A stretch of DNA of 31,665 nt from Terramyces sp. JEL0728 (Eukaryota; Chytridiomycota; Chytridiomycetes; Rhizophydiales; Terramycetaceae), in assembly GCA_027603945.1 (NCBI GenBank), contig JADIIU010000141.1, positions 1 through 31,665 of the forward strand. Direction: 5' to 3'. The notes beneath the pieces were generated by a model. That model was not told where the DNA came from. It made no database searches and was given only the letters and a program-made list of their open reading frames with translations. Both the position numbers and the translations under genes were made by a program. Positions 36-29,057 of the stretch are shown piece after piece (position 1 is the first letter of the stretch; the number at the start of each line of letters is the position of its first letter).

Positions 36-824
36 ATGGACGACGATTTCGAACTGCCTCAACTTCCACCATCATTATCTTTGGATGAACTTTTAGAAAA
101 AGCCCAAAGGGACACACAGGCAGAATCTCAACCTCTAAAACAAGATGAAATTCCATTTGATGAAGATGCTGGTACACATTGCTAACTCAGTAAATAAGCT
201 GTTGGGAACTGATGATATTAAACCAACGAGAAAGATAAAGCGGGATGTAAAGATGACTGAACAAATGCTAATGGGTGATACCGGATTCAAATACCTAATC
301 AAGACAATCAAGAAACACAAATTCAAAGGATCTGGACACGAAGTATATCCCATTAACTGTAGAAATATGACTTGTCCAAACTAATGGAAATCATTCAGCT
401 TTGGGGTAAGTGGCAGTTAATAAAGGACACCAAATGCTGCCAAAGATGGCATTCAAGGACTTTTTGGTCCAAACCAACAAGATTTGCAAGCAACGGAGGA
501 TCAAAGTACGTCAATATTAACCAGATATACAAAGAAGAAATTCAGAGGAGTCACTTTAAAAAGTCAATGGGGATTTTGGTGGAAGAACCACAAAGAGAAG
601 AGCAAGTTGAAGCTGTGGAACCAGAGATTGAAGTTGATGAACCTGTAGTTCTAGAGCCAGAGATTTCTACCCAGCAAAAGGAGATGATTGAAGCCAAAAA
701 GCAGCTGGCGTTGGAGAAACTTGCACGCAGACAAGAAGAACGTGAATCGGCTAGAAGGAGAGAGGAAGAAGAGAATATTGCCAGAATGATTGCTGAATCT
801 GGCCACCTGTTTGCCGAAGAGTAA
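36..824 (+). CDS. CSM3: Csm3/Swi3/Tipin replication fork protection subunit
   Basis: Partner of Tof1/Timeless in the fork protection complex, which stabilises stalled replication forks and relays the S-phase checkpoint in the nucleus. The spliced protein is 236 aa. An acidic N-terminus leads into the conserved Swi3 domain (about residues 75-150): an FKYLIKTIKKHKFKGSGHE stretch, then LSKLMEIIQLWG and MAFKDFLVQTNKIC, in the order known for Tipin. A charged coiled-coil tail contains KKQLALEKLARR, like the KQLALERR of animal Tipin. Four introns were placed by restoring this domain: 172-190, 343-362, 406-425 and 506-524 (19, 20, 20, 19 nt). The ATG at 36 is the first in frame, but the window starts only 35 bases upstream, so a further exon cannot be excluded. 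A possible extra splice from 821 to 867 would replace the stop and join the frame to the next gene. Confidence 0.85.
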
Positions 825-853
825 TAAAATTGCAATGGATTGCTACTAATTGA

Positions 854-1481
854 TATCTGATTTCAAGCTGGATTGTGCTAAATTCCGCAGATATTCTTGC
901 CGAAAAAGCGGAATGGAAAAGCAGAACACCTATTGGAGCATTTTCAGTGAAATATCGAGTGTGCTATATACCTCACTCTTGATAACCCCTGGTCAGCGTC
1001 AAAAGAAAGCCTATTTGATGCCTTTCAAAAGCGATTATATTTGTCACCAGATCGGCGGACATCGGATATTGGCAAATTTCAATCAAACAAAAATCCCAAA
1101 ATACTCTATGAATCAGCGGAACTGCATGGATATCAGCACCTTGCTGTTGACCAATGTAATCCAGCCTTGCCCAATTCCTTTGATGGCCATAAATATTCTA
1201 GCAAAGTTGTAAGCCACATCGGGTTTGACCCCCTAAGTGAGCTTAAAACAGATTTATCCGTCTATTTTCCTTACCAATTTCAAATGAGCGAAACGTATAT
1301 CCTACAGCTCGACAAACCAAAGGGAGAAGCGGATGATTTCGGATCGCTGTTGTACACGGCATTCGTCGAAATTCCTTACATGCTATTCTGGGGCGATGAT
1401 AGCGACCCCGAATTGGACTTGGAAGATATGGAGAACTCCAGAAAGTTGCTAATGTATGGAGCCAGCCAATACACACTTTAA
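854..1481 (+). CDS. OAZ1: Probable ornithine decarboxylase antizyme with +1 frameshift
   Basis: Antizyme binds ornithine decarboxylase monomers and targets them to the proteasome; its synthesis needs a polyamine-stimulated +1 ribosomal frameshift. Seen here: a short open frame (854-979) ending CYIPHS at TGA 980-982. Skipping one T continues directly as DNPWSASKES and stays open to TAA 1479-1481. No GT-AG intron of this genome's size fits the gap. The site TCT-TGA-T mirrors the metazoan TCC-TGA-T, and both are followed by a residue run starting D. ORF2 is 166 codons, against about 160 in human antizyme. The C-terminal part (YILQLDKP, then GEADDFGSLL, ending in SRKLLMYGAS) weakly matches the antizyme YIEIP, GSKDSFAVLL and LLRTFSFLGF blocks. 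No ATG opens ORF1, so the start is unresolved: it may be non-AUG, or lie in an upstream exon spliced from 821 to 867. A frameshifted pseudogene or sequencing error is the alternative. Confidence 0.5.
977..985 (+). other. Candidate programmed +1 frameshift site TCT-TGA-TAA
   Basis: The zero-frame codons are TCT (977-979), TGA (980-982) and TAA (983-985). Skipping T980 puts GAT in frame and restores a 166-codon open frame. A slow UGA followed by U, after a serine codon, is the arrangement known for antizyme frameshifting (UCC-UGA-U). TCT in the P site would be a variant. The second in-frame stop directly behind makes simple readthrough useless, which fits a +1 shift better than stop suppression. 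Confidence 0.5.
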
Positions 1482-1486
1482 TGTAT

Positions 1487-1500
1487 AATAAACTTTTATT
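1487..1500. terminator. Overlapping bidirectional poly(A) signals
   Basis: Seventeen bases separate the stop codons of two convergent genes (antizyme on plus, NARG2-like on minus). They hold AATAAA on the plus strand at 1487-1492 and AATAAA on the minus strand at 1495-1500. The minus-strand hexamer overlaps that gene's own TAA stop (1499-1501). Transcripts from both sides probably overlap in their 3' ends. Confidence 0.55.
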
Positions 1501-3635
1501 AAATTATAAACCTAGAGCTTTGGAATACTTGTTGGTAATCTTGATACTTGACATGTGCAAATCGGCATCCTTTACACTTTTTACCTTTCAGATATTGGTT
1601 GCACACTTTGAAAGGTAAGCGCGTCTTTCCAATAGGTGGGACTTTGTTTGGGGGAAACGTATAGGGGATATTACCTTGCGTCCACTCGTACATGGGCATA
1701 GGAGTGACTGGATTGCCAGTTATTATTAATTCCTTGGGAAAGTACTTAGCTTCAGCGTCACCAGTTTCAAATATTGAAATCTTTTTCCCATTAGGTTTCT
1801 TTGCTATATAATACATACCAGGTTGTAGCCTACGATTAAATAAATGTACCTTTGTAATTCGTTTAAAATCTCATACAAACCATTACTGTACGGGATTGGG
1901 AAATTACCGTCCTGGATTAGTTGATCCATTTGCTTCTCCTGGTTTTCAATTATCACATCCCTTGCTGGATGGATTTTAGCTATCATTAGCTTTGCGTTTG
2001 GCTTTACAAAAGTAGAGCCCCACCATTTGATCTTTTCGTATTCAGTAATCAGCTCTGATCCGTTATCTGGTAAATATTCCAGTTTCACTCGAGTATTTAC
2101 ATTTTGAAGCTTACCATTGCACTCCATTTGGGTTTCTTGCTTAGTGCGCAACAAGATAGTAAATTTACCAAACTTCCATACATTGTACCATAATTGTCCC
2201 CTTTCTTTGTTGAACTGCTTCAGTGAATTTTTGTAGTACTTTTGAAGTTTATCACGCGCAGTTTGTTTGGCCATTGCTAGTGATTTATCAATAATTATCA
2301 CCTTGGAAAGTTTATGCTTTTGTTGAACATTCTTGATTATTAGTGGGATTTCGAATCCAGGAGACTCGCCAACTGCGGAAAGCAACGCGTTAAAGCTCGA
2401 AGAGCTCATTGCGATGTCAATCAAATTATCTTTTAAAAGCATTTCTACGTTCAAATCCATACTCATTACTGGTGGAGAAACCTAAATTAGAATAGAAAAT
2501 ACCTTGTGTACTTCAGGGCTGGATAATTTGACATTCAAATTTCTAGATACGGTACTGGGCTGGCCCAGCTTCAACAGTGTTTCCGTGTACTGTAAAATAC
2601 TACTTATAGTGTAATCCTTTTTCAAGTCTATGCACTTTACGCACTGCACATTCTTGTTATAATCTTCATTTACCCTTTGAAGCCTTTCAGATAGCTTCAC
2701 CTAATGTCAAGACAAAATACCTCATAATAATGCTCCGCTTCCGGCGTGAGATGTTCGAAAACTTGTCTGTTCAAAGATAGTATTGCTTGCGAAATAACAC
2801 TGAATTGGTATCTCTCGACATTCACCATTTGATCGATTGCTTGGAATTTAATCAGGTTTTCTTTACGGTACTTTTCACCTCGGAGACAGTCAAGATAGAA
2901 TTGGTGTTGAGTTTTATCCAGGATAGACGGGGGTAATGGGATATTTTCATTGTAGAAAAGCCGTTTTTTATCTGGTATTTTGCCAGCTGGAGAGGTTATT
3001 TCCGGCACGTCAATCTGCACTGCTTCAGGAGAGCTGCCAACTGGAAAGTTTGGCACTATCTTTTTTACCTCTGGAACAATTTGTAAGCGTGGAAGCTCAA
3101 GGATTCTATTTGGACAAACTTGATCTTCTTCTTTTGGTGAAAATACAGCCTTTTCACGGACCTCAATGGACATTACGTTGTTCTTTTGAGCAGATAGCTG
3201 TGTCTTTGAAGTTCCATGCGTATCCTGAGTGATGGTATTCTGCAGCAGAGTATTGGGAATGCAAAAAGTTTCATTTTGCTTTCTTTCGAAAATAACAGTT
3301 CCTTCTTGAATACATTCTTCAATTTCGTCGGTTGCGAGATCAATGTGTGCGCTATTCTCCTTTATAGCAATATCATTTGTCTCTGTTCCATTTTCCGAAA
3401 TAATATCAGACAAGTCTACTTCTGAATCTTCAACATCTGAAAAATCCACATCTTCTCTGCGTTCAAATTCAAAGTCAACCGCCCTGATTTCTCCTAGATC
3501 ACGCAACTTTCTCCGCTTGTTTTGATAATTAAGCATATCAATTTGAATATCGGTCACCTGCGAAAGAAATTCTGTTGAATTCATCGGTCTTTCCAATATC
3601 TCGTTCAGTTCCGATAGAAATATTGTCGAGTTCAT
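1499..3635 (-). CDS. NARG2: NARG2/ICE2-like little elongation complex subunit
   Basis: In animals ICE2 (NARG2) is a subunit of the little elongation complex, which supports RNA polymerase II transcription of snRNA genes. The spliced protein is 691 aa. The N-terminal half is acidic and low-complexity. The C-terminal half has a NARG2_C-like order: a KFGKFTILLRT strand, VKLEYLPDNGSELITEYE, WWGSTFVKPNAKLMIAKIHP, then NELQRLQPGMYYIAKKPNGK. The tail holds a short CCCH-like cluster, VCNQYLKGKKCKGCRFAH (spacing C-x8-C-x2-C-x3-H). Introns at 2701-2720, 2482-2502 and 1830-1849 (20, 21, 20 nt); the last one restores the LQPG motif. The start ATG lies 32 bases from the divergent IRC3 start. The family call rests on recalled motifs in a fast-evolving protein. 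An unrelated nuclear zinc-finger protein remains possible. This is not the yeast ER protein also named Ice2. Confidence 0.5.
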
Positions 3636-3667: not shown

Positions 3668-5545
3668 ATGCGAGTCAGAAGAGTCATTCGCACATTTTCA
3701 ACATTACGAGACTACCAGCACGAATGTATTCAGGAATCGCTCAATCATTTTGAATCTGGACTTAAAAGAATTGCGGTTTCGTTACCTGTAGGTAAAAATA
3801 CCTGACTGGAGGGAGTGGAAAGACAGTGATTTTCTCGAATTTGATTCCCAGGATAAAGAATCCAGCTCCAAATGCTCACAAGACACTCATACTAGCTCAC
3901 AGGTACCTTATATGTCACAATAGACAGGAATTGCTGTTTCAAGCTTACCGCACTGTTAAGAAATATAGTCCGGATATTGTAACTGATTAGTAACAAAGAA
4001 AATTGGTATCGAGCAAGGAAGTAGAAAGCCAGATCTGGATTGCAAAGTACTGATTGCAAGTGTCGCAACGCTTGGCAGAAACAGATCGGATAGATTAGAG
4101 AGATACAACCCTAGTGATTTCAAATGTATTATAATTGACGAAGCCCATCATTCTACAGCTTCAACTTACCAAAAGATTTTGAATTATTTCAGAGTATACG
4201 ACAAAGATAGCCAGATCAAATTGTGGGGTTGTTCCGCTACACTAAGAAGGCATGATGGCCGTAGTCTTGCTCCAACTTTCGAAAAAGTCGTCTTTCAATT
4301 GCCAGTATTTGAATTGATCCAAAACGGATATCTCTGTGATTTGACAATCAAGACAATCAAAACCAATTACAGTCTTGGAAAAATTGCCACTCAGAATGGA
4401 GATTTTAATCTAGCGCAGCTTGCAACTACTTGTGACACTTCAATTAGAAATCAAATTGTCGTTGCGACATATTTGGACCAGTTGCAGAGTTATAACATGA
4501 AATCTACATTGGTGTTTGCAGTAAATGTGCAACACATTCAACATCTGGTTCAAGGATTCATAAATAATGGAATTGAAGCAGTGGGAGTACATGGAGGTAC
4601 TCCTCAAGATCAACGGGAACAAATATTGCAAGATTTTAAAGATCAAAAGTTTCCCGTGCTGGTGAATTGCGGTATTATTACTGAAGGCGTGGATATACCC
4701 AATATTGACTGTCTGTTGATGGCCAGGCCCACCAAATCCGGAGTATTGCTGCAACAGATGCTGGGAAGAGGGATGAGGCTACATGAAGGGAAAAAGACTT
4801 GTTTAGTTCTGGATTTTGTAGATACAATCGATCAAAATGTCATGCGAGCAACTATCCCTACCTTGCTGGGTTTGAATCCAGATTATGTTCTGGATGGTAA
4901 CTAAATTTGACAATAGACACCCTGTCTGCTAAAATGACTGAATTGGCAGACAAAAATCAAAATGAAACTAATGAGCCTGTTTCAGATGGTTATGGCTTGG
5001 GGGAAGTAACTATATCCCTGATTCCGTTTGAGAATCCATTTGCCCTGGAATCAATCTACAAAGAAACACTATTTACTAAAAAGTACTCCAAGTTCGCATG
5101 GATTAGAACAGGGGCAGAGAGGTGGGTTATCTTTCTGCTTGTAAAGAATGAAACAGTATCGCTTGAACGTGGTGCCGACGGTCTTTTTCATGGATACAGT
5201 AGGACAGCTCATCGCAACATCAAGTCCAAACCGAAAGAGATAATGAGCCATGACAATTTTGAATCTGCAACTCGTGCCTTGGATCAGTATATCGTAGATA
5301 AGATTGGCTATCATTCAAGCAAAGATCTGTATTGGGATGCTGGCTGGAGAAGCTTGGATATGACTCCTGCTCAAGCTAAATTGATGAGTAAATATGGTAT
5401 TAAGGGTGACCTAAACCGCGGTATTGCTGCAGATATAATTACAAAGTACTTGCATGGAGCGAAAGGGCATATCCAGCGACAACAGCAGCAGAATAAAATC
5501 TCTGAAAAGCAAGAAACTGAGAGAAAAAAGTTGATGATTATTTAA
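3668..5545 (+). CDS. IRC3: Irc3-type mitochondrial DEAD/DEAH helicase
   Basis: Superfamily 2 helicase of the Irc3/UvsW type, which in yeast acts on branched mitochondrial DNA. The spliced protein is 598 aa. A basic start, MRVRRVIRTFS, looks like a mitochondrial presequence. Motifs in order: LRDYQHEC (Q-motif region), Walker A GSGKT at 42-46, LILAHRQELL (Ia), IIIDEAHH at 134-141 (II), CSATLRRHDG (III), VNCGIITEGVDIPNID (V) and QMLGRGMR (VI), then a family-specific C-terminal domain with WIRTGAERWVIF. Introns: 3792-3811, 3903-3923, 3979-3998 and 4897-4916 (20, 21, 20, 20 nt). The first interrupts Walker A; the second has no stop and keeps frame, but splitting it out restores HRQELL. The last removes an apparent stop that would cut the protein after motif VI. 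Confidence 0.9.
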
Positions 5546-5592: not shown

Positions 5593-5968
5593 ATGAACAG
5601 GTAGAAATCAACTCAACGTAGAAACAATGACTGGGACAATCGGATACGCAATGAACAAAATGAGAGATTGCTGGAGAGTCAAACAGATGGATTGGCTGGG
5701 GGTTTAGCGGATAAAGTGTCTAAAATTAAACAAATTACACTGCAGATGCAAGGCAGGATTGACGAGGATCATGTGTAATTAATATTAACCCAGTGTGCTT
5801 GATAATATGGGGAGCTCGTTCGATAATATATCCTCAGACATTAGCCGAACTGGACGCAAACTGGCACTTGTAATGAATACGCCGTATGGACGAAAGATGA
5901 CCACCATTGTTGGCGGAATAGTAGCGTTATTTATATTAATTTGGCTATTCAGCGGTTCCAAGAAATAA
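5593..5968 (+). CDS. BET1: Bet1-type ER-Golgi SNARE
   Basis: Qc-SNARE for ER-to-Golgi vesicle fusion; tail-anchored, 111 aa after splicing. The protein begins MNRNNDWDNRIRNEQNERL. A heptad SNARE motif follows (about residues 20-75: ESQTDGLAGGLADKVSKIKQ, ITLQMQGRIDEDH, LDNMGSSFDNI). A membrane anchor, IVGGIVALFILIWLF, ends four residues before the stop. Two introns, 5601-5621 (21 nt) and 5775-5793 (19 nt), join three frames. The first exon is only 8 bases (ATG AAC AG), chosen because it is the only ATG that meets the donor in the right phase. An upstream ATG at about 5571 would end in a stop after splicing. Confidence 0.85.
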
Positions 5969-6010: not shown

Positions 6011-6520
6011 ATGTCGCAGGAGCAGGAGGAAATGATGCAGCTGAAAGCAATGAAGTTTGCTCAACAAGAACTAATGAATTCTTGCCCGGCAAAGACTCTG
6101 ATTGGTGCAGCAATGGGTAGCTAATTTTAATTGCTAGGATTTGCTATGGGTGGGCTGTTTGGGTTGTTCATGTCTTCTGCAGATAGCGCCCTTGATGATA
6201 AATTCCTGAGATTATCCGTGCGAGAGCAGACTGCAATTACATTCAAAGAAATGGGAGCAAAGGCAGTGTCCTCTGCAAAATCATTTGGAGTTTTAACTGC
6301 AATTTTTGTTTCTTCAGAGTGTGCAATTGAAACTATTAGAGGAAAAGATGATCATTATAACCAATTGCTGTCTGGATGTTTCACCGGAGCCTATCTAAGT
6401 AGAACTGGTAAGTTATTCCTAATGATAGCCGGAGTGCAAGCAATGGGAATTGGATGCGTTGGATTCGCCGCATTTTCTGCTGCTATAGAAACGTATATGC
6501 ATCGCACAAGACATAATTAA
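6011..6520 (+). CDS. TIM22: Tim22 carrier translocase subunit
   Basis: Channel subunit of the TIM22 complex, which inserts carrier proteins into the inner mitochondrial membrane. The protein is 155 aa after splicing and belongs to the Tim17/22/23 family. Visible signatures are the N-terminal ELMNSCPAKTLIGA (compare ESCPGK in yeast), GFAMGGLFGLFMSS (first membrane segment), FKEMGAKAVSSAKSFGVL, and the final AGVQAMGIGCVGFAAFSAAI. Introns at 6117-6137 and 6408-6428, both 21 nt. The second has no stop and stays in frame, so an automatic annotation would keep seven extra residues (GKLFLMI) inside the last membrane segment. Removing it restores SRTAGVQAMG. The gene starts 42 bases after BET1. Confidence 0.9.
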
Positions 6521-6664: not shown

Positions 6665-9600
6665 ATGGCATCGGATATTACAAAGTGGGCAGACCATGCA
6701 TACGTACTTTCCAAACAAGCAAATACACTATTAGCAGCACTACATTCAGTCAAGAAAACTCTTGATCAAGAGGCTGCTCCTTCAAATGATATTCTAACCA
6801 AAGGGGGTTCGCCAGACTTGGTGGTTACATTTCGCGGCACGATTATCAAGCCTGAAGCTCCTGCAAGACCACCGCTTCAAAGACTACTGATATTTTTAGA
6901 TCCGCAAGTAGCAAATTTACAGAATAAGCTGAAAAAATTCCCAGACTTTGGCGACATCAAGGAAAAGGATTTGACCATATTTCAAAACCAATCGGGAGAG
7001 ATTCTTCAAGATCTAAAACAATACTATGATGTGTTTGGGGCGATTGCAGAATATATAGATTTGGCAACTCCTGTTTTACTCGGAGTAAGCAAATTTCGGC
7101 TGGTGGTAAGGGATGGTTAATCCAGGTGGAAACCCATACCGAGTTGGTAATGACTTTCTTTGAGTTGATGGCCAATATCGCAAAGCTGTTGCTGCTCGCG
7201 TCAACAATATCTCCGCTGAAAAAAGTAATTGTTTTTCTATACAGCAAGGCCTACCAGACTACAACTGGTGAGGCGAGCAGTCCGAATTGGAATAGGTACT
7301 ACTTTTTTAATTCAGTATTGTGCAATTCTTTAAAATACACGAAAAACCGATTGCAACTATGCAAAACTTGCTCGCCCCAATATTGCCTACGTTTAACAAC
7401 ATCCTTCAGGGACTCACACCAATGGTGAATGCCAAGATATCTGATGTTCAGAGTCTCGGATTATGGAACATTTTGGAAGGGTCTGGGAATTCAAATACTC
7501 AAATTTGCAGATATTCCGGACAAAGCTTGTCAGAAATTATGCTCTTGGGATTCTTGGTCAATCCCAATGCCGAATTGGCTGATGCTGTAAAGAATGTTTT
7601 GGGGGTCAGAAATTCCGTAAATTTGGTAAGAGACGAAGGATACAGCTTGTATTATGAAATTGAGCAAGTATCCAAAGACAATGTCAAAGTTCCAAAACTT
7701 AAAAGTCTTAAACAAGACTTGGTTTCTGCCAGCGGCCAAATTGCAAATTACCATCACACTTTGAGAAACTACTTGCTGGTACAGCTACGAACTATCCTTG
7801 CTGCTTTCAAATCCAAGATTGGATTTAAGCAATTTCCAGTACTTTGGCTTTCACCTTAGGTTATTATTGATGCATTATCAACTTGCAAGGAAGAAGTTTA
7901 CTTTTACTTTGATAACTACGACCTGGATGCATTGGGGAGCCCGTTGAAGGGGAAACAGCAAAAAACATTTGATCATACCATTGCAGAACTAATATGGTTA
8001 CATAAATCAGTGTGGACAGCAATAATTCAAGGAAAAAGAGGTAATTATTGCTAATTAGCAGAGTTGCAGCAATACCTGGTTTCAGAAATTGAACTAATTT
8101 ATGCCACCATTTCAGACTTCCTTCGAGCCAATTTTGAATCTCTATCAAGTGATTTGAACGAACCAGAACTGGAAATCATCAAGCAAATCATGGAAACCTG
8201 CAGATCTCCACTTCAGGAATCGGATTTCCATGGACTGCGAATGAATTGGTTGAGATTCCAAGCATTTTTGGCGTTCAACGGAAAAGCATTAAAAACAAAA
8301 ATGGATATAATCAAAGAACAAATGGAAAAGTTTTACCAAATATCCTGCTGGGTAGACGACTTTTCATTATATGTTGCTGAGCACAGCAGTTGGAAATGCC
8401 TCTATTACAAGCAAAATGCTTTGCACGAACATATGAAGGAAATTTACGAAATAGGAGGGGATGCAGTAAAGTACAGTGTAGCATACGGCCTGATTGCAAC
8501 AGATTTTAACGAGAATATTCCTGCAAGCTGGACTTATGATGGCCCCCATGTACAGAGTCATACGATGTGCTACGCTACAGAATTCTTTTCAGTGTATGGT
8601 CAGTTTGCAGCGTCGATTGCGCACGATTTGGCAAACAGAGTGAATCAGTATTTAGCTGCTCCAGCCCCAGAACAAGGAACGATGACTAGAAAAACCATGA
8701 AAAAGAGTAGATTGAATGAGCCATCGAATAAGGAAAATGACCCAAAACTGTTACAAGTTATAGAGGAGGACAGAGCGCTGCTATTAAATTTAATGGACGT
8801 ATTTCAATATGGAGGAATTCCAATTTATGATGTAGTCTTTCATCCATTTGAGTTTTTCTTGGATTCTCTGTGCACCAAATTTCGAATGTAACTTTAAATA
8901 ACTCTAGGTTCTTGAATCAAGGAGTATACTTGAATGACATATTGGTAACCAAAGAAAACTGGGGTGTAGGAGGAGTAGACATCATGTCGTTTGACATTAA
9001 AAGACCAAGCGCTTTGTTGAAAGAAATCAAAAATTACATGAATGGGATGAGCTATTTGTGCCGTATAACGGGTGTAAATGTAAAGAACATTTTGCGAGAT
9101 GTATGGGTAGATCAGATTGACCACGAAAAGTATTTGCTTGTTAATATCAGAGCAAAAAGATTTGCATCGGGAATGCAGAATGAAATGGTTTTCGAGTTGA
9201 ATAACAAACCGCAAAGAAACAAAGGATTGGCTGTTCAGCAAAATTCCATCCAACCATTTTTGATTACAATAGTACAATGGTATAGCGAATTCATCGCAAG
9301 TAAAGCTGCAAGTGGTGCTGCAGTTTTTTCACCGCTACATGAATCGTTTTGCAACATAGCACCCTCGTCAATTCAAGCCGAAAATTACACTGGCGCTGAT
9401 GAAATGAAAGCGCTTTTTGATTTGATTGGCTTGGAAGGGATGCAATTCTTTGAAGAAAAGTTAGTTCGTATGGCGACGGTACAGGCCAGTGCTCTACAAG
9501 TGATCCTTATTAATTTTAGGATATAATTGGGCACAACAAAGATTTACTCGCACAAATTAATCCCCTAGATGGTAGAGCTCTAAAAGATCAGCACAAAAAA

Positions 9601-10395: not shown

Positions 10396-11187
10396 TTAGT
10401 AAATAGCATTATATTTTCGAAGAAAATCATCGCATAAAGCCTCAATAGTTCCTAAGCCAGTCTTCAACTCGTTCAATAGCGGAAGCGGGGATTCAACGAG
10501 AAATCTATCCACAACATGTACATCTTTGCCATTTACCCTTTATTAGCACTATTTACTTGACGGTAGAGTTATTTTTAAGCTGCGATAATGCCTGCTCAAT
10601 TGCGTTTTCAGGATTAACCAAACAATTGACATTTGTAATCATGTTCATATCTTGAATCGCAAAATCAACCGCGCAATCAGTAGGAGAATCCAAAAACTAG
10701 GTAAGACAACGGTTTACAGTAGGATGGTGAACTTTGGGAAACATTAGATTTGGGTTTGGAGCAGTTAATGCGGATATGGCCTGTTGTACCAGGGAAGTCA
10801 AGTGCGATAGCACATCCACCATTCCCTCCACAGATCTCGCGTCTAGTCTCTTTACTAATACGAATGCCATTGAAAGACAGTTGTGGGTTGTCTTGAGCTG
10901 AACCAGATCAATAGGGGAATTGGAGTCGATTTTCATTGTTACTGCGTGTCCCCTGTTATAGGAAGGTGATTTAATGGTGAGCTCTCCTTTTATTATCATG
11001 GTATTCGACAGTGTAATAAATCCTTTCAGCTTATTTGAGCTTGATTAAGACTGGGATACTTTATAGACGAAACTGCAATTGTACACGGTTTAGAAGTAGT
11101 TGTGAGTTCCAGTGTTGCCTTTACGATTGCCTCTAGCTCGTCGATGTACGATTCTACGGTTCCTTGAAACCATGCAGCAACCGTCAT
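10396..11187 (-). CDS. ROGDI: Rogdi/Rav2 homologue
   Basis: Rogdi (yeast Rav2) works with Rabconnectin-3/Rav1 in the RAVE complex, which reassembles the V-ATPase. The spliced protein is 243 aa (human 287). Recognisable parts are LKGFITLSNTMIIKGELTIK (Rogdi has LKGFVTLQGD), a leucine-rich helical middle, NLMFPKVHHPTFLDSP, CAVDFAIQDMNMITNVNCL (matching the family's hydrophobic block after the FSPPLP region) and a C-terminal helix. Introns at 11040-11059, 10697-10717 and 10538-10556 (20, 21, 19 nt). The ATG at 11187 is 56 bases from the divergent CMC2 start and convergent with NCKAP1. Confidence 0.75.
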
Positions 11188-18026: not shown

Positions 18027-21000
18027 ATGGAAAAATCAGTAATATCTTCACTAAACAAGCGTACCCCAGATAACAACCCACCTATTGAATCTCCTATAAA
18101 AGGGACGGTTACTAGCAGTCCATTAACAGACGTGGTCGAACTTGAAGATACACATTTCACGGAAGAGTCAGGTTAGTTGTTTTTCACAATATAGACTCTA
18201 GCGAATCAGAAATTATTGATACAGAAATCAAATACAGAAAAGAGAAGCAGCGCAAAGCCTGGGAACAAGCTCAAGTTGATCAATATTTAAAACTAACGAG
18301 AGTCAAAGGTTCTGACTCAAGCAAATCCTCACTAGAAAATGCTAAAAAGATACGCCATAAAGATGAAAGAGGTAAGTTCAAACAGTGATCTACTTTGGAA
18401 CAGATTGACAATAGTGAACAAGTCCAGGCGAGACTCAGTCAACACCGAATCAGGAACTAATACTCCTGTTGAGACGGAAGAAGGGATTATTCTCCCAGAC
18501 AGAAAAAGACCAGTTCCGTTTTCTGCAGTAAATTCTCAGGATAGATCTGGAAGAACGCTAATATTTAAATATGCGTCGAGGGGTGATTATGCGACTTCAG
18601 AAGCATTACTCAAGGCTGGGGCTTCTCTAAGAATAGCAGACTATGCTGGCTGGACTCCACTCCACGAAGCTTGTTTGGAAGGACACGCAGATATCGTCAC
18701 GTTAATGTTATCTTTTGATGCAGATGTAGATGCTCCAGGCGACGAAGGTGATACCCCATTGCATGATGCTGTTGGAAATGGACATTATGATGTTGTAGAG
18801 ATATTATTAAAGCACGGCTCATCGATCGACATTCCAAACGACAAAGGGCAGACTTCTGTTGAATTTGCGATAGAGAAAGCACAAGAGGCTCGTGATGATG
18901 ATGTAATATGTATTAACGCTAGGAAAGTGATTCGAAACACGGGAGATCTAAAATAGCGGAAGCAGACAAAATTGTAAAGTTACTAATTGAATGGAAAGAG
19001 ATGACCGCCAAAGTGGTTGAAAGGGATAGTTCTGGACAAACTGTGCTGCACAAAGCATGCGAGGCTGGTAATTTAGACGAAGTCTCAAAGCTTTTGATGT
19101 ATGGCGCAGATATTACGGCAGTTGATCTTTCAAATTGGACCCCATTACACAACGCAGCACTAAACGGACATTCAGATATTGTGGGGCTATTGTTGAATTA
19201 TGGAGCAGATGTAGATCCATTAGGCTTGAATAATGAAACGCCATTACACGACTCTGTAGCGAATGGGCATTACGAATGCGTGTCCGTTCTGTTATCGTAT
19301 GGAGCCGAGACGTTCCGAAAGAACAATGATGGAAAACTTCCACTGGATTTAGTGCCAGAAAAGAACTCTGAAAAGATTTCAGAGATGTTAAAGAAACCGC
19401 TAGAGTATTGGCAGCCACTGAAGACTCCAGAATATTACCCCAGATTATTGGCAACCTGTGATTCAATTTCTAAAACACCAAAAATATCGAAAAAGAAAGT
19501 AGAAAAAGAAAAAATCAAAGAAACCCCAAGGCAGGCTAATTCTTTTGCTTGGGGAGGCTTGGACAGCTCAGCTGGACCTTTTGAATCATCTAGAGAAGAG
19601 AAAAAATTCAAAGCTCTATGGAAAACAATTGCCAAACAAAGTGATACCCCTGAGACTGGAAAATACACGGAATCAAAGAGAGATAGTTTGGATAATCAGG
19701 AACAAAGCCATAGCAGGCGATCTCCCGCCATATCAGAGCCTAAGCATCTTCCAACAACGGATAGCAGTCATGAGGGTAGAGCAAGACATTCCAGCGTCGA
19801 CCCAGAAAGTCTCTATAAAACCTCGGAAATACCAAGAAAGAGGTCTCAGAATTTTGAAAGCGAAGAGCCAAAAAAGATTAAAAAGTAACCGTGTATTTAA
19901 TTCAGGGATTCGGCGAAGCATCTGACTACTCCAGCTAAAAAAGTAAAAGGTATTTTTGTCTTGACGCAGAAAAAGGGAAGCTGCCAGACACAAGCAAAAG
20001 TTTAACCCAGCATTCTGAAAGAAAGCCAAAAACCGAGCATTTTAATATGGAAAAGACACCGCAGCAGAAGCAAATTTCAAAACTAGTGTCGCAGAATTCA
20101 GTATCTTCACTTAATTCCTCGGTCGATCAACATAGCGTAGAAAGGAATGATGAAGTGAAAATCTCAAAGAAAAAAAAGAGGTTTACGATATCCGGATATC
20201 AAAAAGCAGGGGAAGAAGAAGACTCCAACCAAGAACTGATACAGAAAAGCGAAACTAGTGCCAAAGTTGATAATACCCTGGAAGGAAATCCTAAACATAC
20301 AATTCAATCGGAAACAAAGTCAGCGCCAGCAGAAAGCGAATCTCTGCGCAAAAACGATGAGAAGCCAATCAGCCCAACCCTTAAACCTCCATCTATTCCT
20401 AATACGAAGGCGGAGGGAGCGGTTGCAAGCGATAAAGTAAGGTCGCCGCCAAAGCTGAGAGATAAACTAATGGAAATGGAAAACTCGAATCAGATACCAG
20501 AAACAGTCAAACAGAAAACAATGGCGCCGGTGCAAACTTCAAAAAAGAGACTGGTGGAAAATATTGAGAATTCTGCGGGGCCAGTAAGGATAAATGAAAA
20601 ACCCAAGCCGGAAACAAAAATAACAGAACCAGTTAAAATAGATTTGAACGTCAAGCATTGTTTACCACTATGTGCGTATCACAAAACACAATCCGGTACA
20701 TATTACAACCCCCCAAGTGATATATGGGGTCATGTACCGAAACCGTTACATTCCAAAGTGTTTATTGATCTTCAATTGGCAATTCTGTTTGGGTTCAAGT
20801 CCGGAAGACAGCTACTAGAGAAATTTCCGCTCTTATCCACTCGAGTAGCAACTACACAGGAGAAATCGGCGCTCGAAACGACAATCCTATCCAAAAGATT
20901 ATTTCAATCAATGTCCCAAACACTTGACAAGTCATACCTACCGTCTGCAATAATAGATGGACAAGAGTATCTGAAACTCGTAGATTTAGATATTCACTTA

Positions 21001-21184: not shown

Positions 21185-21587
21185 TTAATCCTGCTCTTCA
21201 TCCTGCGGTCGTTCATACTCTAAACATTCAACCAACCCCAAAATCCGCTGCTGCTCGTCCTCGCTAAACCTCTCATCAATCTCCTCCACGAGTACAACCA
21301 ATTCAACAAGACTCGTTGGTCTCATATTCAAAATAGACAGTTTCTCCAGTTTAGTCAATTTCAAATCGTTAAACCTTGCTTTATACTCTTTAATCTGGTC
21401 TACTGACTGCTGTGAGCAGGGTAGCATCGGGTCTGAGAGGAATTTTGTTGTTGTGTGCATTGCTGTACGGTAGTCCTGGAATGATGGGTCTAGGGCTTCC
21501 ATCGGTTGGGAAAAGAACTGTAAGACTTCATAGTTGGATACTTTGTTAATTTTAGTTACGTAGTTTTGGCTTTCCTATTATTTTCAT
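21185..21587 (-). CDS. RPC9: RNA polymerase III subunit RPC9 (Rpc17/CRCP)
   Basis: Rpb4-like stalk subunit of RNA polymerase III, which pairs with Rpc25 and contacts TFIIIB during initiation. The spliced protein is 127 aa, close to the usual length. The first exon gives MKIIGKPKL. A 19-nt intron at 21541-21559 restores LLSNYEVLQFFSQ, the typical N-terminal LSNxEV element. The HRDC-like core reads LTKLEKLSILNMRPTSLVEL, then VVLVEEIDERFSEDEQQRI, matching human LTKAEKLQLLNHRPVTAVEI. The tail is acidic. Without the intron the gene would start at an internal ATG (21502) and lose the stalk-binding N-terminus. Confidence 0.85.
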
Positions 21588-21681
21588 TGGAATTGTTTGT
21601 AGATTAAAAAAAATAGAGTTATGATTTTATTCAACCAAGTGATTCTTTGCAACAAATCCAATGAAAAACACAACCTAAATA

Positions 21682-22559
21682 TTAATCGAAATCAACCGCT
21701 CCAAAAGTAGTGAGATTCCTGTAAAAGACTTTGATACGTTCTTCCTTTGTAGTTTCCTTGTACTCTCCAGTAGGATTTTCAATAAATGACATTAGTAGCT
21801 GTTTGATATTTGTTTTAGGCGATGGCGCTCTTACTAAATTAATCAAGGCTACCTAGCGGGGTCGCATACACGATTGTACTCATCCGTTCAACAAATGCGA
21901 TGAGAGTTGGGAATTCAAAGGTCAGTATTGAAAACAATTGCGGGATTTTCAGTGATGGGTAGCAGTGTAATGATAAATGAGCGAATGCGACTACATCCAA
22001 CGTGCTCGTCGAACCATAAAAGAAGGACTGGCTGCCAAGTTTATCCGCCAATGTCTTGTAAATCTCTCTTGCGGTGTCATAGAAATCTTTTCTGTTTTGC
22101 AATCGGGTTTTTACTCTATTTTTCTGTTTGGAAAACAAGTACTTGTTGTATATATTGAAGTTGGTTGAGATTATAGACTTTGTTTTTTGGTAATTTTCCT
22201 GTTCTAAAAACCAAGTGTATAATAAGCAGTCATGAAGTTTGTCCTCTATTAAACTAATGAATGCTTGCGATTCTGCAAGCTCTATCGGTGTCAAAAGGTG
22301 GTCCAAGTCATGGCCTTTGTCAGTTCAAATTACCTCTTGCCTTGAGGACTTTGATAATATTAAATGTGCCAGTGATTGGTTCAAACCCTACCTTTAGCAG
22401 CGGCAATTCTCCTGATGGTGAAATGTCGGTAGAGCAGCATTCATTCACTACCCATTTTACTTGGACTAAATTTAAATATGCTTCGATTGATAAACAGAAT
22501 GGGTCGAACGACGATTGATTGAATCCTTGACCCCAGGCATAAAGTTCTAGATTTGCCAT
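21682..22559 (-). CDS. MTX1: Metaxin-like outer mitochondrial membrane protein
   Basis: Metaxins (Sam37/Sam35 relatives) are peripheral subunits of the SAM complex, which inserts beta-barrel proteins in the outer mitochondrial membrane. The spliced protein is 279 aa. It has a thioredoxin-like N-domain (MANLELYAWGQGF; SPSGELPLLKVG) and a GST-C-like part: ELAESQAFISLIEDKLHDCL, LLYTWFLEQENY, TLADKLGSQSFFYGSTSTLD and VVAFAHLSLH. The last two match the metaxin LGSQKFFFG and SLDAFVFSYLALLL. Introns at 22315-22333 and 21834-21852, both 19 nt. No C-terminal membrane anchor is evident. Only five bases separate its start from the divergent zinc-finger gene. Confidence 0.8.
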
Positions 22560-23305: not shown

Positions 23306-26300
23306 ATGGTGCAGGAAAAAAGTTCAATTGAAGAAGCTGAACCACAGAAGCTGACTATAATCTTACCAAACAAGGAAGAACTGTTCGTATCGGTGGTAGA
23401 AAAGACTATAATTCATGAAGTTCGCCAAGTTGTTTATGATTCGCCAAAAGCCCAATTTTACACTTGCTTTTATCTTTCTTACAAAGGTAGCAAATTAAGT
23501 GAAGATTTGGAATTGGGGCAAATCGAAGGATTTGATTATACATTGAATGCGGTGCAAGGTAATTATCTCTTAACAAGACTTGTACAATGAACATGAAGCC
23601 AGAGTTCATATCGGTAGATTAAGGGAAATTCTTAGTTACTTTAAATCAACCGCTGTTTCTTATGGATTGGATATGGCTGCCACCTACTGTTCTGCAGTCA
23701 GTGGGAAGCAATTATCTGGATTGGAAAAGGAGAAATATCAAAATAATTTGGATTTTGAAAATACAGAAACATCCATGGACAAGCACATTCCTCAAGATTA
23801 CTATGCAAAGGAAATTGAATGCCTTGAACAGATTTCATTGTCAAGGTGGAACCCACCTCCATTCAGCAGAAAAATGCAGGGCGATTTAATCTACCTAACT
23901 GTTGAATTGTTTGAAAAGTCTATTGATATTACTTGTGCCCAGTCTGGGTTCTATGTTAATGGATCAACAGCCAAATCTTTTGATTTCAAACCAAGTTCAC
24001 AAGTGTTTGATACTCTGCCTTCTCTCTTGTCTAGCTTAAGCAATCAATTTGATCAAAAGTTTAAGGAATTGCAAGAGTTTGTTACTGCAAGACATCCATA
24101 TGAATATCTCTTGACCACCTGCCCATCCTACCCTTGGATTGTAAAGTCGCAAGAACACAAGCCAGAGCTGGCAAGAACTTTGGATGCCAATTTCAGCGCC
24201 AGCGATGTTTTGGAAACTCTATGCTCAAGAGACTGGAATGATGATTTGCAAAACGCCAGAGAGCTGCCAAGGGAATCGGCACAAGAAAGAGTACAACGTG
24301 ATCAAACAGTCTTTAAAAACCATTCTGATTTCATTGATGCTGCATTGAAAGGAGCTATGGCTGTGGTAAACAAGACAATTTTGCCCATAAATCAATTGGA
24401 ATCTGATTTATCTCAAATGTACTTGCACAACAACATCTTTCTATCTGAAGGATACGACAACAAGGATCAATTTGATCTTTATGGTGGGTTAGATGCTGCC
24501 CATGTTGCAATGAGCAAAGATATTGATGGAATCAAGAGTGTCTCTCACCGCGATATGGAAGGAATTCATACTTTGGGGACAGCACTTATTGACTACAAAG
24601 GGCGTAGAATCCTTGCGCAGACCATTGTTCCAGGTATCCTCAAAAAGAATGACAATCAAGAATCACCGGTCAAGTATGGGTCTGTTGATAGCGGCAAGGA
24701 AATTCAAGTTTCCGAACACGTTGTCCCTGAAGCTGAAAAATTGGCAAAGGCACTTCACTTGGCTCCCCACGCTCTAGTTGACGGAGAAGGCAAGGAGCAT
24801 ACTCTGTATACTTCCTTGGAAACCAAGGTAATTGTTTTTGATTTTAGTGGGTTAACGGAACAGATTCCAGATTGTACGTGATGGATCTGTACAGACTCTT
24901 CCCGGTCGATGCAACTTTTTTGGAAACTGTCCAAAAAGAGCCCGAAACACCATATCCTCATCAAATGGCTTTACTTCGTCCTGAATTAGTTGAATTGTTT
25001 TATGAACACAAAATCAGATTGGCAGTCAAGGAACACCAGGAAAATGCAGTCAAACAAAAGGAAGGAACAAAAGAAGAATTGGAAAAAATTGCTCAAGATT
25101 CTTTATCTTCTTTCCAATTTAGCTTGGCTTTAAACCCTGACGCATTTACAAAGGCTAACCAAGGAGCCAACAAAGAACAAATCGAAAAAGATGAAAAGTT
25201 GGTCAAAGAAGCTTCTGGATTCATTTCTGTCATGATATCCCAGTTAATTTTGGAACTCGTTCAATACGGCGTCTCAATCCCTGTTGACACTGTCAGTTTA
25301 ACCAAGCTTTTGCATCGTAAGGGTATCAATATGAGGTACCTTGGTAAGATTGCCAGCTTGTTTGAACAAATTGAAGATAAATCAGTGGTGTACTTTACTG
25401 CTTTGTTGAAGGAAGAAATGATTGCTCGTGCTTGCAAGAGAATCCTGCGCAACATCATTGCCGATGTACCACTTGCATCAGTTGGCGGGTGCATTGCGCA
25501 CTTTTTCAACTGTTTGTTTGAAAATGGAAAAGTAACACAGGTTTAAATCTCTTTAACAATAGACTGAAATTGCAAACATGACTGCAAAATCCCTCCACGA
25601 CGAAATCAAGTCGGTTGTTGCACAAAGGTTCAGATTTAAACTTGCTGGTGATGCTCTTAAAGTCAGAAAGAATGCTCTGCTCCGTAGCATTTGTTTGAAA
25701 GTCGGCATCCAACTTGAATCTAAAGATTACACTACCAGCCAATTTGTCCAAGAAGATATTCTAAATATTTATCCCATCATCAAGCACGCTCCTCCTAGAG
25801 CTGCTTTTGCACAAGAAGCACATGAGCATGGAAGGATGAACATTGCTCAGGATCAAAAAGATTTTGGTATGGAACTGTTAAAAGAATCTCTGTCAATGTA
25901 TGAGCAAGTCTTTGGACCTATTCATCCAGAAACCAGCCGTGCATATGACTATTTGGCGCTTCAATCATTCAATCGTAATGAGCTTGAACAAGCCATCTAT
26001 TTACAAAGAAGGGCCCTCATTGCATCTGAAAGAACTACTGGCATTGATTCCCGTGTCACTTTGGAACAATACGTACTATTGAATTAACCATAGATGAACC
26101 TGGCTTACTTTGAATTTGCAAATGACAATCACCAATTGGGTCTTACCTACATGCACCATGCATTAAGATTATGGCTATTCTTGTGTGATGGATATGATCA
26201 CCCAGAAACTGCTTCGGTATTGTCAAATATCGGTGCCATGCTACAAAAAACTGGAAATTCTAAATTATCTGTCGAATACTGTGAAAAAGCAGCCAGACTA

Positions 26301-26593: not shown

Positions 26594-28135
26594 ATGAAAA
26601 ACAAAAAATCTAAAAAACGCAAGGTTGTAATTGATTCTGATGAGGATCCGATTATTGAAATCAGCGAACTAAAGCGAAAGCCAAGAGTGTCTACCCAGAT
26701 GCTTGTGACAAAGCACGAACCCATATTCACTGCAGAGCTGGCAGTTCACAAGAAAAAGATTGATCAAGTGCGGGACTGGATGCAGACAGCACTCAAAAGC
26801 ACCAAACCAAATGTACATTCTTGCTAACCTAGATTCTGGTTCTATCTGGTCCAAGCGGCTGTGGTAAAACTGCAACAGTAAATTGTCTTGCAAAAGAACT
26901 CTGGAGCAAAGTAATTGAATGGGAGAATATTATTGATACTTCGCTGTTTGACTCTGTATTTGATACAAATTATGGCAATGAAACTATAGCGGATAATTTC
27001 TCAAAGTTCTTGGAGACCAATGGGACAGGGTCATTGTTAACGTTCAATGGGGGGAAATCAGATGGTAATAGACGGTTTTTACTTGTCGAAGATTATCCAA
27101 ACGTAATGCACGATAAAGTGCGGAAAAAAGTTCAAGATGCGTTCCAAAGATATTTAGAGAATGTGGTTGCAGTACCAATCATCATCATAGTCTCGGACAT
27201 TAGCAATTCTTTGGACTGGAATGACGGGCCAATTACCAAGAAAGAACTGCTACCCAAGGAAATCTTGTTTGGCCAGTATTATTCAGAGATTCCATTCAAT
27301 CCGATTGCCCGGACTTTTGTTGCTAAGGCATTGAATAGAATTTGTAACCTGGAGGCGATTACTCTGTCCCGTGCAGTTACAGATTCTGTTTCTGTTTCTT
27401 GTGGTGGAGATATTCGTACTGCAATTAACAACTTGCAGTTCAATAATTTACTGTCTGAAAATTCAGTTTGGTTTCAGAAGGATGCTGATCTATCGCTCTT
27501 CCATGCAATTGGCAAAATACTGCATTGTAAGAGAAAAGTACACGAAGCAAGTGGAGAAGGTTTGCTCAATCCCGACCTGTCCTATTTGAAACGGTGCGAA
27601 TTGCCGTTTAATCCAGAGGTAGTTTGGTGTTGACTTAGGACATTTTCGATTCTTTGAATATCGGGTGCTCCTTCTTTTTGGCGTTTATTCATGAAAACTA
27701 TCCAAACTATTGTAGTCCAGATGAATTGGAGCATGTCACAAATTCTCATTATTTCAGTGAGGCTGATTTAATGATTGGAAATTCACAGGTAATACTTTAT
27801 AATTTTAGTCATTCAAGAATTTGACATCTTATTGCTATTCGGTTGCCGTAAGAGGGTTGCTCTTTTCGTGGGTGATTAATCGAACCGTCCCAAAGTTGGG
27901 ATTCTTTCATTTCAACAAACCAAATATATGGCAGACAGATAAATGCAAAAGGGAAAATCTGCAAAATTGCAATGAAATTATAAAGCACTGCAATGAAAAC
28001 TATAGCCTGGGATCCACTGAACTCGGTCTATCGCACAATCACAGCTCTAGAAGTGTTCGAACAGAAATAATACCCTATTTGGGTATCATGAATCGCCACA
28101 AGTCGCCCACAAAGTTCAATAGTATCTGCGATTAA
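26594..28135 (+). CDS. RAD17: Rad17/Rad24 checkpoint clamp loader
   Basis: AAA+ subunit that, with Rfc2-5, loads the 9-1-1 clamp at damaged DNA in the nucleus. The spliced protein is 493 aa. A basic nuclear-localisation-like start (KNKKSKKRK) and the linker PIFTAELAVHKKKIDQVRDW precede Walker A GPSGCGKT at 79-86. A Walker B-like FLLVEDYPNVMHDKV (Rad17 has LVEDLPN), IIIIVSDISNS, IPFNPIARTFVAKALNRI and the sensor-2 region GGDIRTAINNLQF follow. The C-terminal part includes FLAFIHENYPNYC. Introns: 26813-26832, 27619-27638 and 27789-27808, all 20 nt. The first lies just before the Walker A strand. It is shorter than human Rad17 (about 680 aa), mainly in the C-terminal tail. Confidence 0.85.
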
Positions 28136-28167
28136 CCGTAGATTACCACCGTAGTCAAATATCCAAG

Positions 28168-28356
28168 ATGTCTAATTACAATATTAAAATTCCGCCCCAA
28201 CAATTTAGAGCAGATGATGGGATCGAGGATCCCATTTTCAACGCCAAGATTAGTAGAAAAGAAAGTGCTTCAATTCTGTTTTTGCATGAATTAGAAAGAG
28301 CAAATAGAGAATCTCTGGGAGATTTATATTTATTGGAAGACGACATAGAGGACTAA
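28168..28356 (+). CDS. Small acidic orphan protein
   Basis: Not recognised. The frame gives 62 aa from the ATG at 28168, 32 bases after RAD17, and looks translated: MSNYNIKIPPQQFRADDGIE, a middle ESASILFLHELERANRESLG, and an acidic end LLEDDIED. There are no membrane segment, cysteines or known motif. One amphipathic helix is likely. Its stop is one base from the stop of the convergent EF-hand gene. It could be a small subunit of a larger complex; I have no evidence for which. Confidence 0.5.
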   Translation: MSNYNIKIPPQQFRADDGIEDPIFNAKISRKESASILFLHELERANRESLGDLYLLEDDIED

Positions 28357-28357
28357 C

Positions 28358-29057
28358 TTACACGGCGGGTGTTGCAGATCTTCTACGCTCGCTCAAGTAT
28401 TGCTGTGATACTCCTAGCCGTACATGTAGCGGTGTGGTGTCTTGTTTCAATATCCATTGTACATATTCATTAAACTGGATTTTCCCATCTTTGTTTTGAT
28501 CCAATTCCTGAATTAATCAAGGGTACATTGAGCGTCTGAATCAAGTTTCTTCTAGTCACTCCTCTTCGGATCAATTCCGCGTGTAGTGTTTTGAATTCGT
28601 TGATATCAATTGATCCTGAATTGTCCCTATCAAATTTATTGAAATCCTGTGTAATCAGCTGCAGCACTTCCAAATCTTCAGGCGGAATTTGTAGGATTTT
28701 AAAGCGGTCCTCCCTCCTCCACCAAATCAAAACTGCGTCAATAATTCATTACATTCTTCAAACTCAATCTGCCCATTCCCATCCTTATCCAAGATTTTCA
28801 TGTCAACCTTTGCTTCTTTGTCGCTTAAAAAGTAGCCCATATCTGCGCATAGCAGTCTGAATTCCTTTTCGCTAATATTTCCATTCTTGTCAAAATCGTA
28901 TTTATCAAATCTTGTTAGCAATTTATTACGTCTTTCGAATAATGTTAATTTCAGATTTGATAGGAGTGCCTTGATCTCGAATTACTTGTTTTTGTACTTC
29001 AGCTGCCTCTTGCTTTTCTCGCTGTTTTATCTGGTAGTTCTTTGAGTGCATGCTCAT
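28358..29057 (-). CDS. Four-EF-hand calcium-binding protein
   Basis: The protein has about 210-214 aa with four canonical 12-residue EF loops: DFDKNGNISEKE, DKDGNGQIEFEE, DRDNSGSIDINE and DQNKDGKIQFNE. All have acidic or Asn ligands at positions 1, 3 and 5, Gly at 6 and Glu at 12, so all should bind calcium. The basic, Gln-rich N-terminus starts MSMHSKNYQIKQREKQEA and may form a coiled coil. The C-terminus, SERRRSATPAV, has a possible phosphosite. Introns: 28714-28733 (20 nt, donor GTTTTG) and 28508-28526 (19 nt, which restores loop 4). A third, near 28962-28990, is needed to join the N-terminus; donors allow 16 or 28 nt and I cannot decide. It is wider than calmodulin, with a longer central linker; a centrin, calcineurin B or Dikarya orthologue is not obvious. 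Confidence 0.75.

Follow-up and report, generated by a model that had tools for sequence, protein, structure and literature searches.

Genes and introns of the window

The window, which is the whole analysed stretch of 31,665 nucleotides, carried a series of predicted genes that are interrupted by very short introns. A Swi3/Csm3-like gene (172..824, forward strand) contained introns at 172-190 (19 nt), 343-362 (20 nt), 406-425 (20 nt), and 506-524 (19 nt), and the Pfam match to Swi3 (83.4 bits, residues 77-156) spanned three of these four junctions. The gene at 1499-3635 (introns within 1830..2720, reverse strand) was divided by introns at 1830-1849 (20 nt), 2482-2502 (21 nt), and 2701-2720 (20 nt), which were placed by reading frame and splice motif. 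It was followed by a helicase gene interpreted as IRC3-like (3792..4916, forward) with three 20-nt introns (3792-3811, 3979-3998, and 4897-4916); a ResIII match (92.9 bits) ran across the first two junctions, the third lying outside it, and removal of 3792-3811 restored the Walker A motif PVGSGKT; the product was also aligned to RadD (6jde). Excision of introns at 5601-5621 (21 nt) and 5775-5793 (19 nt) restored a 111-aa frame in a small gene (5601..5793, forward) interpreted as Bet1-like, for which the Pfam search gave no match. A Tim17/22-family gene (6117..6428, forward) had introns at 6117-6137 and 6408-6428 (both 21 nt), with both junctions inside a Tim17 match (95.2 bits, residues 25-142).

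The gene for NCKAP1 of the WAVE complex (7106..10218, forward) harbored nine introns (7106-7125, 7296-7315, 7839-7859, 8041-8058 of 18 nt, 8888-8907, 9130-9150, 9500-9519, 9965-9984, and 10200-10218), and all nine junctions fell within a Pfam Nckap1 match of 370.9 bits that covers 1068 residues (87-1154). When its product was aligned with 3p8c_B, the alignment broke into two stretches, between which the 9130-9150 junction (residue 789) lies. On the reverse strand, a Rogdi-like gene (10538..11059) contained introns at 10538-10556 (19 nt), 10697-10717 (21 nt), and 11040-11059 (20 nt), two of whose junctions were inside a Rogdi_lz match (104.4 bits, residues 6-177), and a Gln/Met-rich region interpreted as MED15-like (12444..15274) contained four 21-nt introns (12444-12464, 14233-14253, 14362-14382, and 15254-15274) placed by frame and motif. 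The same two signals placed introns 18903-18922 (20 nt), 19885-19905 (21 nt), and 19950-19969 (20 nt) in an ankyrin-repeat gene (18903..19969, forward), the repeats of which were recognised by eye in the translation. Three 19-nt introns (21541-21559, 21834-21852, and 22315-22333) followed at 21541..22333 (reverse); the last two belong to a metaxin/Tom37-like gene, and the Tom37 match (90.2 bits, residues 22-138) crossed one junction, that of 22315-22333.

A CLU1/TIF31-like gene (23559..26093, forward), for which homologs were found, contained introns at 23559-23577 (19 nt), 24828-24847 (20 nt), 25541-25562 (22 nt), and 26073-26093 (21 nt), with CLU_N, CLU, and eIF3_p135 matches across the first three junctions. 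The Rad17/Rad24-like gene (26813..28141, forward) had four 20-nt introns (26813-26832, 27619-27638, 27789-27808, and 28122-28141); a Rad17 match (105.2 bits) crossed the first junction, a RAD24_helical match (26.0 bits, below the 27-bit cut-off) crossed the second and touched the third, and the segment 28122-28141 may instead mark a gene boundary. Finally, an EF-hand gene (28508..28929, reverse) had introns at 28508-28526 (19 nt), 28733-28752 (20 nt), and 28911-28929 (19 nt), with an EF-hand_7 match of 84.5 bits whose best stretch (40-100) ran across two junctions.

This intron set was derived afresh, independently of the 48 introns counted in the initial annotation, which had assigned 44 of them to 19-21 nt. 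Models with permitted intron lengths of 15-26 nt gave 46 introns in the window; removal of a 16-nt case in an antisense ORF of doubtful status and addition of the pair from a small gene overlooked by the finder made 47, of which 45 were 19-21 nt, one 18 nt, and one 22 nt, which bears out the earlier observation. Pfam matches ran across 26 of the 47 junctions (24 of these introns being 19-21 nt), with the slightly sub-threshold RAD24_helical match counted among them, and the remaining 21 were placed by reading frame and splice motif. An unrestricted model with a flat length distribution called 41 introns: 31 measured 19-21 nt, a single one 18 nt, and nine exceeded 30 nt. Several of the long calls engulfed a 20-nt intron together with exon: 7085-7125 contains 7106-7125, 21834-21879 contains 21834-21852, and 3792-3895 starts with 3792-3811. 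The observation of tiny introns is real and confirmed, although the accompanying statement that nearly every gene has one was too strong: introns were called in 151 of the 219 genes predicted in 34 sequences, incomplete and uncertain genes counted.

Length distribution across the genome sample

The genome is 15.0 Mb in size, and the largest sample consisted of the window plus 35 loci (312,856 bases). A semi-Markov gene finder given no information beyond codon usage and GT..AG, and weighting intron lengths of 6-150 nt equally, called 218 introns in 231,665 bases (the window plus 20 loci), of which 60 were 20 nt, 30 were 19 nt, 16 were 21 nt, and 14 were 22 nt. A length peak arose with GT-AG alone; the seven control dinucleotide pairs, which included GC-AG and AT-AC, lacked one at 19-22 nt and reached at most nine calls at any single length. 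AT-AC ends, which part of the minor (U12) introns carry, gave no peak, and a GC-AG-only model showed no clear one (5 of 142 at 20 nt). When donor, branch, and acceptor motifs were learned and the length prior was kept flat, 330 of 391 introns in 306,229 bases were 18-23 nt (78 of 19 nt, 163 of 20 nt, and 54 of 21 nt). In the 312,856-base sample the corresponding figure was 337 of 398, whereas nine controls placed only 5-17 introns in this range. A spacing scan that ignores reading frames, yet uses motifs learned from frame-based calls, found 61, 117, and 44 sites with a score of at least 4.5 at 19, 20, and 21 nt, and 0-7 per length across 24-60 nt.

Restricted models of the 306,229 bases contained 460 introns, of which 11 were 15-16 nt, and one 15-nt call falls in the SF1 gene itself. 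In-frame stops occurred in 77 of 100 introns with a length divisible by three and in 228 of the other 360, a comparison that is confounded by detectability to the finder, and no excess is claimed.

The lengths thus form a single narrow class of up to about 25 nt, and a longer class was not seen, in a comparison with controls that is biased because true introns are bridged there by spurious long ones. That the short introns are only one class, with a normal longer one overlooked, is distinctly unlikely, even though 55 of the 398 ab initio calls were 24-150 nt, the models covered coding-sequence introns of at most 150 nt, and the Pfam-checked models were confined to 15-26 nt. The 55 long calls were fewer than in each of the nine controls (137-247), a comparison weakened by the bias just named, which inflates the control counts. 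Moreover, the full-length genes checked by homology (NCKAP1 and pyruvate dehydrogenase E1-beta) need no intron longer than 23 nt, except for one double segment of 44 nt.

Intron anatomy and the splicing machinery

The computed consensus consists of a GTAATT donor, a YTRAY branch motif, 2-3 nt, and the final AG. Among 330 introns, the predicted branch A lay at base 13, 14, 15, 16, or 17 in 2, 156, 143, 23, and 6 cases (14-15 in 299 of 330), and 4, 5, 6, 7, or 8 nt before the last G in 20, 142, 152, 15, and 1; these are computed positions, the motif having been learned with gaps of 0-8 and scored with gaps of 1-5. The correlation between the two distances was -0.08. The introns are AT-rich (70%), have no space for a polypyrimidine tract, and show no preference for G at +5 of the donor. 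Their lengths are fixed by homology in the E1-beta gene (locus L027), which aligned with human 1ni4_B over 335 residues without a gap after excision of 20, 21, 21, 20, and 44 nt, the last modelled as 21+23. In two gene copies that are 98.9% identical, one intron measures 21 nt in one copy and 20 nt in the other, as drift just above a length floor would be expected to give.

The 44-nt segment of the E1-beta gene and another that the frame requires (L003 at 5234) divide exactly at AG|GT into 21+23 nt, and each half carries its own branch motif. A third case (L020 at 4717, 21+21 nt) shows the AG|GT split with a relaxed branch but fails the strict test. Of the 12 introns of 36-48 nt called by the flat model, one passed the strict test as a doublet (shuffle mean 0.008), the E1-beta case having been noticed separately. 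The idea of double introns rests on these three cases, because a scan of intron-site separations showed no excess at zero separation under strict conditions (counts of 1, 0, and 0 at scores 1, 2, and 3; means 0.25-0.9), and the excess was modest when the thresholds were relaxed (3-7 sites, means 0.8-3.8; the listed sites exclude the E1-beta case). A 41-nt candidate (L020+8302) was rejected as a doublet, because the reading frame of an ABC transporter there needs just one intron, of 20 nt.

The inventory of snRNAs and splicing factors suggested in the initial annotation was drawn up for U1, U2, and U6 snRNA and for SF1, U2AF65, U1-70K, Slu7, and Prp18. U2 snRNA was present (140.2 bits) with the standard branch-pairing GUAGUA in the stretch GUGUAGUAUC, to which the YTRAY motif is complementary. 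The genes for SF1, U2AF65, Slu7, and Prp18 were also present, each interrupted by such tiny introns; exon joining turned matches of 66.2 and 42.9 bits to SF1-HH into a single match of 113.5 bits, raised Slu7 from 139.2 and 104.2 bits to 289.2, and raised U2AF65 from 251.7 and 27.9 bits to 334 (cut-off 310.3). Slu7 and Prp18 are less needed in yeast when branch and AG are close, and their loss, predicted from the short branch-AG distance, proved wrong; since both genes are retained, a simple story of a reduced second step fails. A pattern search of the genome for U1 snRNA gave no match (a reversed control pattern gave eight), and a search of the genome for the U1-70K gene did not find it. U6 snRNA was not found by Rfam or by core patterns, a longer core pattern with three mismatches allowed giving no match. 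Two Rfam candidates for U6 (27.4 and 26.9 bits; cut-off 44) were rejected, as they lie inside an apparent protein-coding gene with two near-identical copies, where the matched stretch contains one tiny intron; five matches to the U6 3' core were rejected for want of U6-like sequence upstream. U6 can hardly be truly absent, which points to assembly gaps or to divergent or interrupted RNAs that such searches miss.

A non-spliceosomal origin, as excised DNA elements (similar to ciliate IES) or as gaps bypassed in translation, is highly improbable: the segments are short, uniform, mostly frame-breaking, and known here from DNA alone, but their ends are GT-AG (Prp18 has a single GC-AG case), their branch motif is complementary to the stretch of U2 found in the same genome, and the SF1, U2AF65, and Slu7 genes are intact after splicing. 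Least probable of all is that a reader or gene finder merely favoured chance GT..AG pairs, which is refuted in the main, since, frequent as GT and AG are, and despite spurious long introns from the finder (at a low penalty, 117 of 542 calls measured at least 25 nt) and the nine long calls in the window, the peak arises with a flat prior and without motifs, is absent from the seven control pairs and from the nine controls of the learned-motif run, recurs in the frame-free scan, and agrees with the gap-free E1-beta homology. The long ab initio introns of the low-penalty run were mostly unreliable.

A probable, seemingly lineage-specific length floor

The most probable explanation, at a probability of about 0.93, is that the window is nuclear DNA of a chytrid-like fungus whose introns, predicted to be spliceosomal and of the U2 type, have been reduced in size to a floor of 19-21 nt. 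In an ATP-citrate lyase tree, a 14-row fork (94/95, not starred) joined the sequence with Nowakowskiella, Blyttiomyces, Siphonaria, Lobulomyces, Quaeritorhiza, and unnamed rows, and the ascomycetes Limtongia and Lipomyces fall within the smallest set that is starred (16 rows, 99/95), so that this one gene tree suggests a place among the chytrids without firm support. The best named match of CLU1 was Kappamyces (57%), and no DNA of relatives was found in viral_contigs and genome_contigs. Each intron would be recognised across itself as a single compact unit, with proximity selecting the first AG downstream of the branch A. Two independent minimum distances, from 5' site to branch and from branch to AG, would then set a hard lower edge, and deletion-biased drift against that edge would keep the range of lengths narrow. 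A more speculative and rather doubtful extension is that the spliceosome acts as a ruler that excises only units of about 18-23 nt; longer segments would survive only if they can be taken out as two directly adjoining units with an exon of zero length between them, a miniature recursive splicing. Its further proposal that the 5' site is read by an altered U1 or mainly by U5/U6 builds on the lack of a +5 G preference and on the U1 and U1-70K searches.

The size class itself has precedents. The nucleomorph of Bigelowiella natans, a 373-kb endosymbiont remnant with described snRNAs, has 865 spliceosomal introns of 18-21 nt without an identifiable 5' splice site motif (PMC6461891); it resembles the present set in size class, abundance, and spliceosomal type, whereas the introns described here belong to a 15-Mb nuclear fungal genome and have a GTAATT donor and a YTRAY branch. 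Stentor coeruleus has introns of 15-16 nt (75.6% AT) in 18% of its genes, with the branch A at base 10-11 and 5 nt to the intron end (PMC9505925); near-fixed length, AT-richness, and a short tail (5-6 nt here) are shared, but length, branch position, and the proportion of predicted genes with introns differ. Mikrocytos and Paramikrocytos also have uniform ultra-short introns (16-17 nt; 224 in M. mackini) with conserved motifs and a spliceosome cut to 17-19 proteins (PMC10245619), whereas SF1, U2AF65, Slu7, and Prp18 are retained here. Paramecium and Nyctotherus likewise have a single ultra-short class, in ciliates and at about 25 nt (PMC5014332).

The initial annotation had placed these introns near the lower limit for spliceosomal introns and had taken them as informative about minimal spliceosome geometry. 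A set that is U2-type by sequence, comparable in length with the nucleomorph, and above Stentor agrees with the former, but the limit is not universal; the floor looks lineage-specific rather than the product of one spliceosome geometry, because mikrocytids reach 16-17 nt and the branch A of Stentor lies at base 10-11 instead of 14-15. What seems new is the chytrid-like fungal, non-endosymbiont lineage, the large extrapolated intron number, and the retention of the four splicing factors; among the matches listed from titles and abstract openings in the open-licence literature, none concerned fungal introns of about 20 nt. Densities of 398 introns per 312,856 bases (flat model) or 460 per 306,229 (restricted) extrapolate, from a non-random sample of about 2% of the genome, to roughly 20,000 tiny introns, which would far exceed the numbers reported for the nucleomorph and M. 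mackini. Gene finders that bar introns shorter than 25-30 nt would misannotate such genomes. The tail agrees between this fungus and Stentor and the loop differs: the distance from 5' site to branch has a sharp lower edge of 14 nt here, as opposed to 10 nt in Stentor, so that comparing lineages can test what determines the minimum. This fungus joins the few lineages with near-minimal introns and offers a good new system for studying how small introns can get.

Intron lengths in sampled parts of the assembly

The assembly containing the window comprises 15,016,339 bases in 231 contigs and was sampled as 25 stretches of 10 kb together with short loci around gene or pattern matches; the sample is non-random, as 10 of the 35 loci of the 398-intron set were chosen via such matches. 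Introns were placed de novo, independently of the list of the initial annotation, by a gene finder that used codon usage and obligatory GT..AG, with all lengths from 6 to 150 nt equally likely. With GT..AG only, this flat-length finder placed 218 introns in 231,665 bases, including 60 of 20 nt, 30 of 19 nt, 16 of 21 nt, and 14 of 22 nt, and no length peak appeared with seven other dinucleotide pairs. When donor, branch, and acceptor motifs were then learned from the introns found, still with no length preference, 330 of 391 introns measured 18–23 nt, as did 337 of 398 after the set was slightly enlarged; nine control signals, run with these motifs, gave 5–17 introns in this range. Calls of 24–150 nt numbered 55, below every one of the nine controls (137–247), whose counts are inflated because controls must bridge true introns and hence over-call long ones. 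No second, longer class was seen in the flat-model calls, and a minor one may exist. Furthermore, a spacing scan that ignored reading frames, with motifs learned from frame-based calls, found 61 strong sites with a length of 19 nt, 117 with 20 nt, and 44 with 21 nt, vs. 0–7 per length over 24–60 nt. The flat-length peak, the controls without a peak, and the frame-free scan bear out the proposal that these introns form a narrow length class of tiny introns. When lengths were limited to 15–26 nt, 11 of 460 calls were of 15–16 nt; a 15-nt call in the finder model of the SF1 gene (locus L035, 1192–1206, minus strand) represents either an intron as short as those of Stentor or an error in the gene model.

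Homology support and possible double introns

In window gene models limited to introns of 15–26 nt, 26 of 47 introns sit inside Pfam matches that continue through the junction, and the basis for the other 21 is reading frame and motif only. The NCKAP1 match (370.9 bits) contains nine introns, and the rest of the 26 lie in CLU1, Rad17/Rad24 (two introns, one of them in a match slightly below cut-off), Tim17/22, Swi3, Rogdi, metaxin/Tom37, an IRC3-like helicase, and an EF-hand protein. Excision of the intron at 3792–3811 restored a Walker A motif in the translation, for which an alignment was made. The gene for pyruvate dehydrogenase E1-beta, which lies elsewhere in the assembly (L027), aligned gap-free with human 1ni4_B over 335 residues (522 bits) after 20, 21, 21, 20, and 44 nt were excised; it is the cleanest case, in which homology fixes the excised lengths, and division of the 44 nt into 21 + 23 is the gene finder's reading, not that of homology. 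Few frame-required segments of 42–44 nt were separable into two introns without an intervening exon. Shuffling gave the two strict cases individual chance probabilities of 0.29 and 0.14%, a third qualified under a relaxed criterion only, and a separation scan favored double introns at loose thresholds only.

Lineage and gene content

The closest named match of CLU1 among 27 rows was Kappamyces (57% over 70%). ATP-citrate lyase was placed among chytrids and metagenomic sequences (group support 94/95, not starred), and the smallest starred set with this organism also includes two ascomycete yeasts. No protein at least 90% identical was present among the matches listed (27 rows; best 120 of 6247), and thus the genome seems unannotated in the protein sources compared. 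NCKAP1, a WAVE-complex subunit encoded at 6665–10371, suggests that actin-driven crawling cells may occur. An IFT172-like reading frame, read by eye in L031, similarly suggests a possible flagellum.

A Thr-rich repeat reading frame on the minus strand (30396–31665), with PSYQHTTTTK-like units recognized by eye and a hydrophobic C-terminal tail, perhaps encodes a GPI-anchored wall or adhesion protein; its repeats contain several frames and stops, and it is open at the window end. About 500 bases at 29058–29567 have no predicted gene, which ranks this interval among the longer gaps in a compactly organized region. At another locus (L012), alike reading frames starting ..CDYNISIVGC.. cluster on both strands and appear to be an expanded family.

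Intron anatomy, splicing machinery, and geometry

The consensus was an A-rich exon end ...AG, then GTAATT ... YTRAY NN(N) AG. Among 330 introns, donor +3 was A in 308, T was the base at +5 in 55% and at +6 in 64%, and just 53 had G at +5; the rarely used +5 G points to possibly altered 5′ splice site recognition. The computed branch A lay at base 13, 14, 15, 16, or 17 in 2, 156, 143, 23, and 6 introns, and 4, 5, 6, 7, or 8 nt before the last G in 20, 142, 152, 15, and 1, respectively. The two distances were uncorrelated (−0.08), with a sharp lower edge in both. Two gene copies, 98.9% identical, are one base apart inside an intron (21 vs. 20 nt); their near-identical 3.1-kb stretches, L023 (contig C199) and L024 (contig C111), are either haplotypes or a recent duplication.

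The U2 snRNA (140.2 bits) is standard, including the branch-pairing stretch, and genes for SF1, U2AF65, Slu7, and Prp18 were found, the last with a 20-nt GC-AG intron (L039, 1790–1809). No stretch of the raw genome reached the curated U2AF65 cut-off (310.3 bits), which was passed with 334 bits once tiny introns were excised; the presence of U2AF65 is noteworthy because a polypyrimidine tract has no space behind the branch. Neither U1 (model and pattern) nor the U1-70K N-terminal domain was found in the genome by searches that also gave no match in control genomes and whose power is shown only by positive finds in the same genome. U6, necessarily present somewhere, was likewise not found in the genome (model and two patterns); since it was missed, true absence of U1 is not inferable either. 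In the nucleomorph U1 is shortened, and Cyanidioschyzon reportedly lacks U1 (PMC6461891).

In Stentor, the branch A lies at base 10–11 with a 5-nt tail (PMC9505925). Compared with the introns here, the tail is alike and the 5′ site-to-branch loop different; therefore, the single minimal spliceosome geometry put forward in the initial annotation is unsupported as stated. Motifs, computed distances, and the named factors are what is directly shown for the mechanism. We infer that the intron may be defined as a whole by one compact complex, that the AG would be selected through its nearness to the branch, and that two minimum distances would set the limit, against both of which deletion drift would run up.
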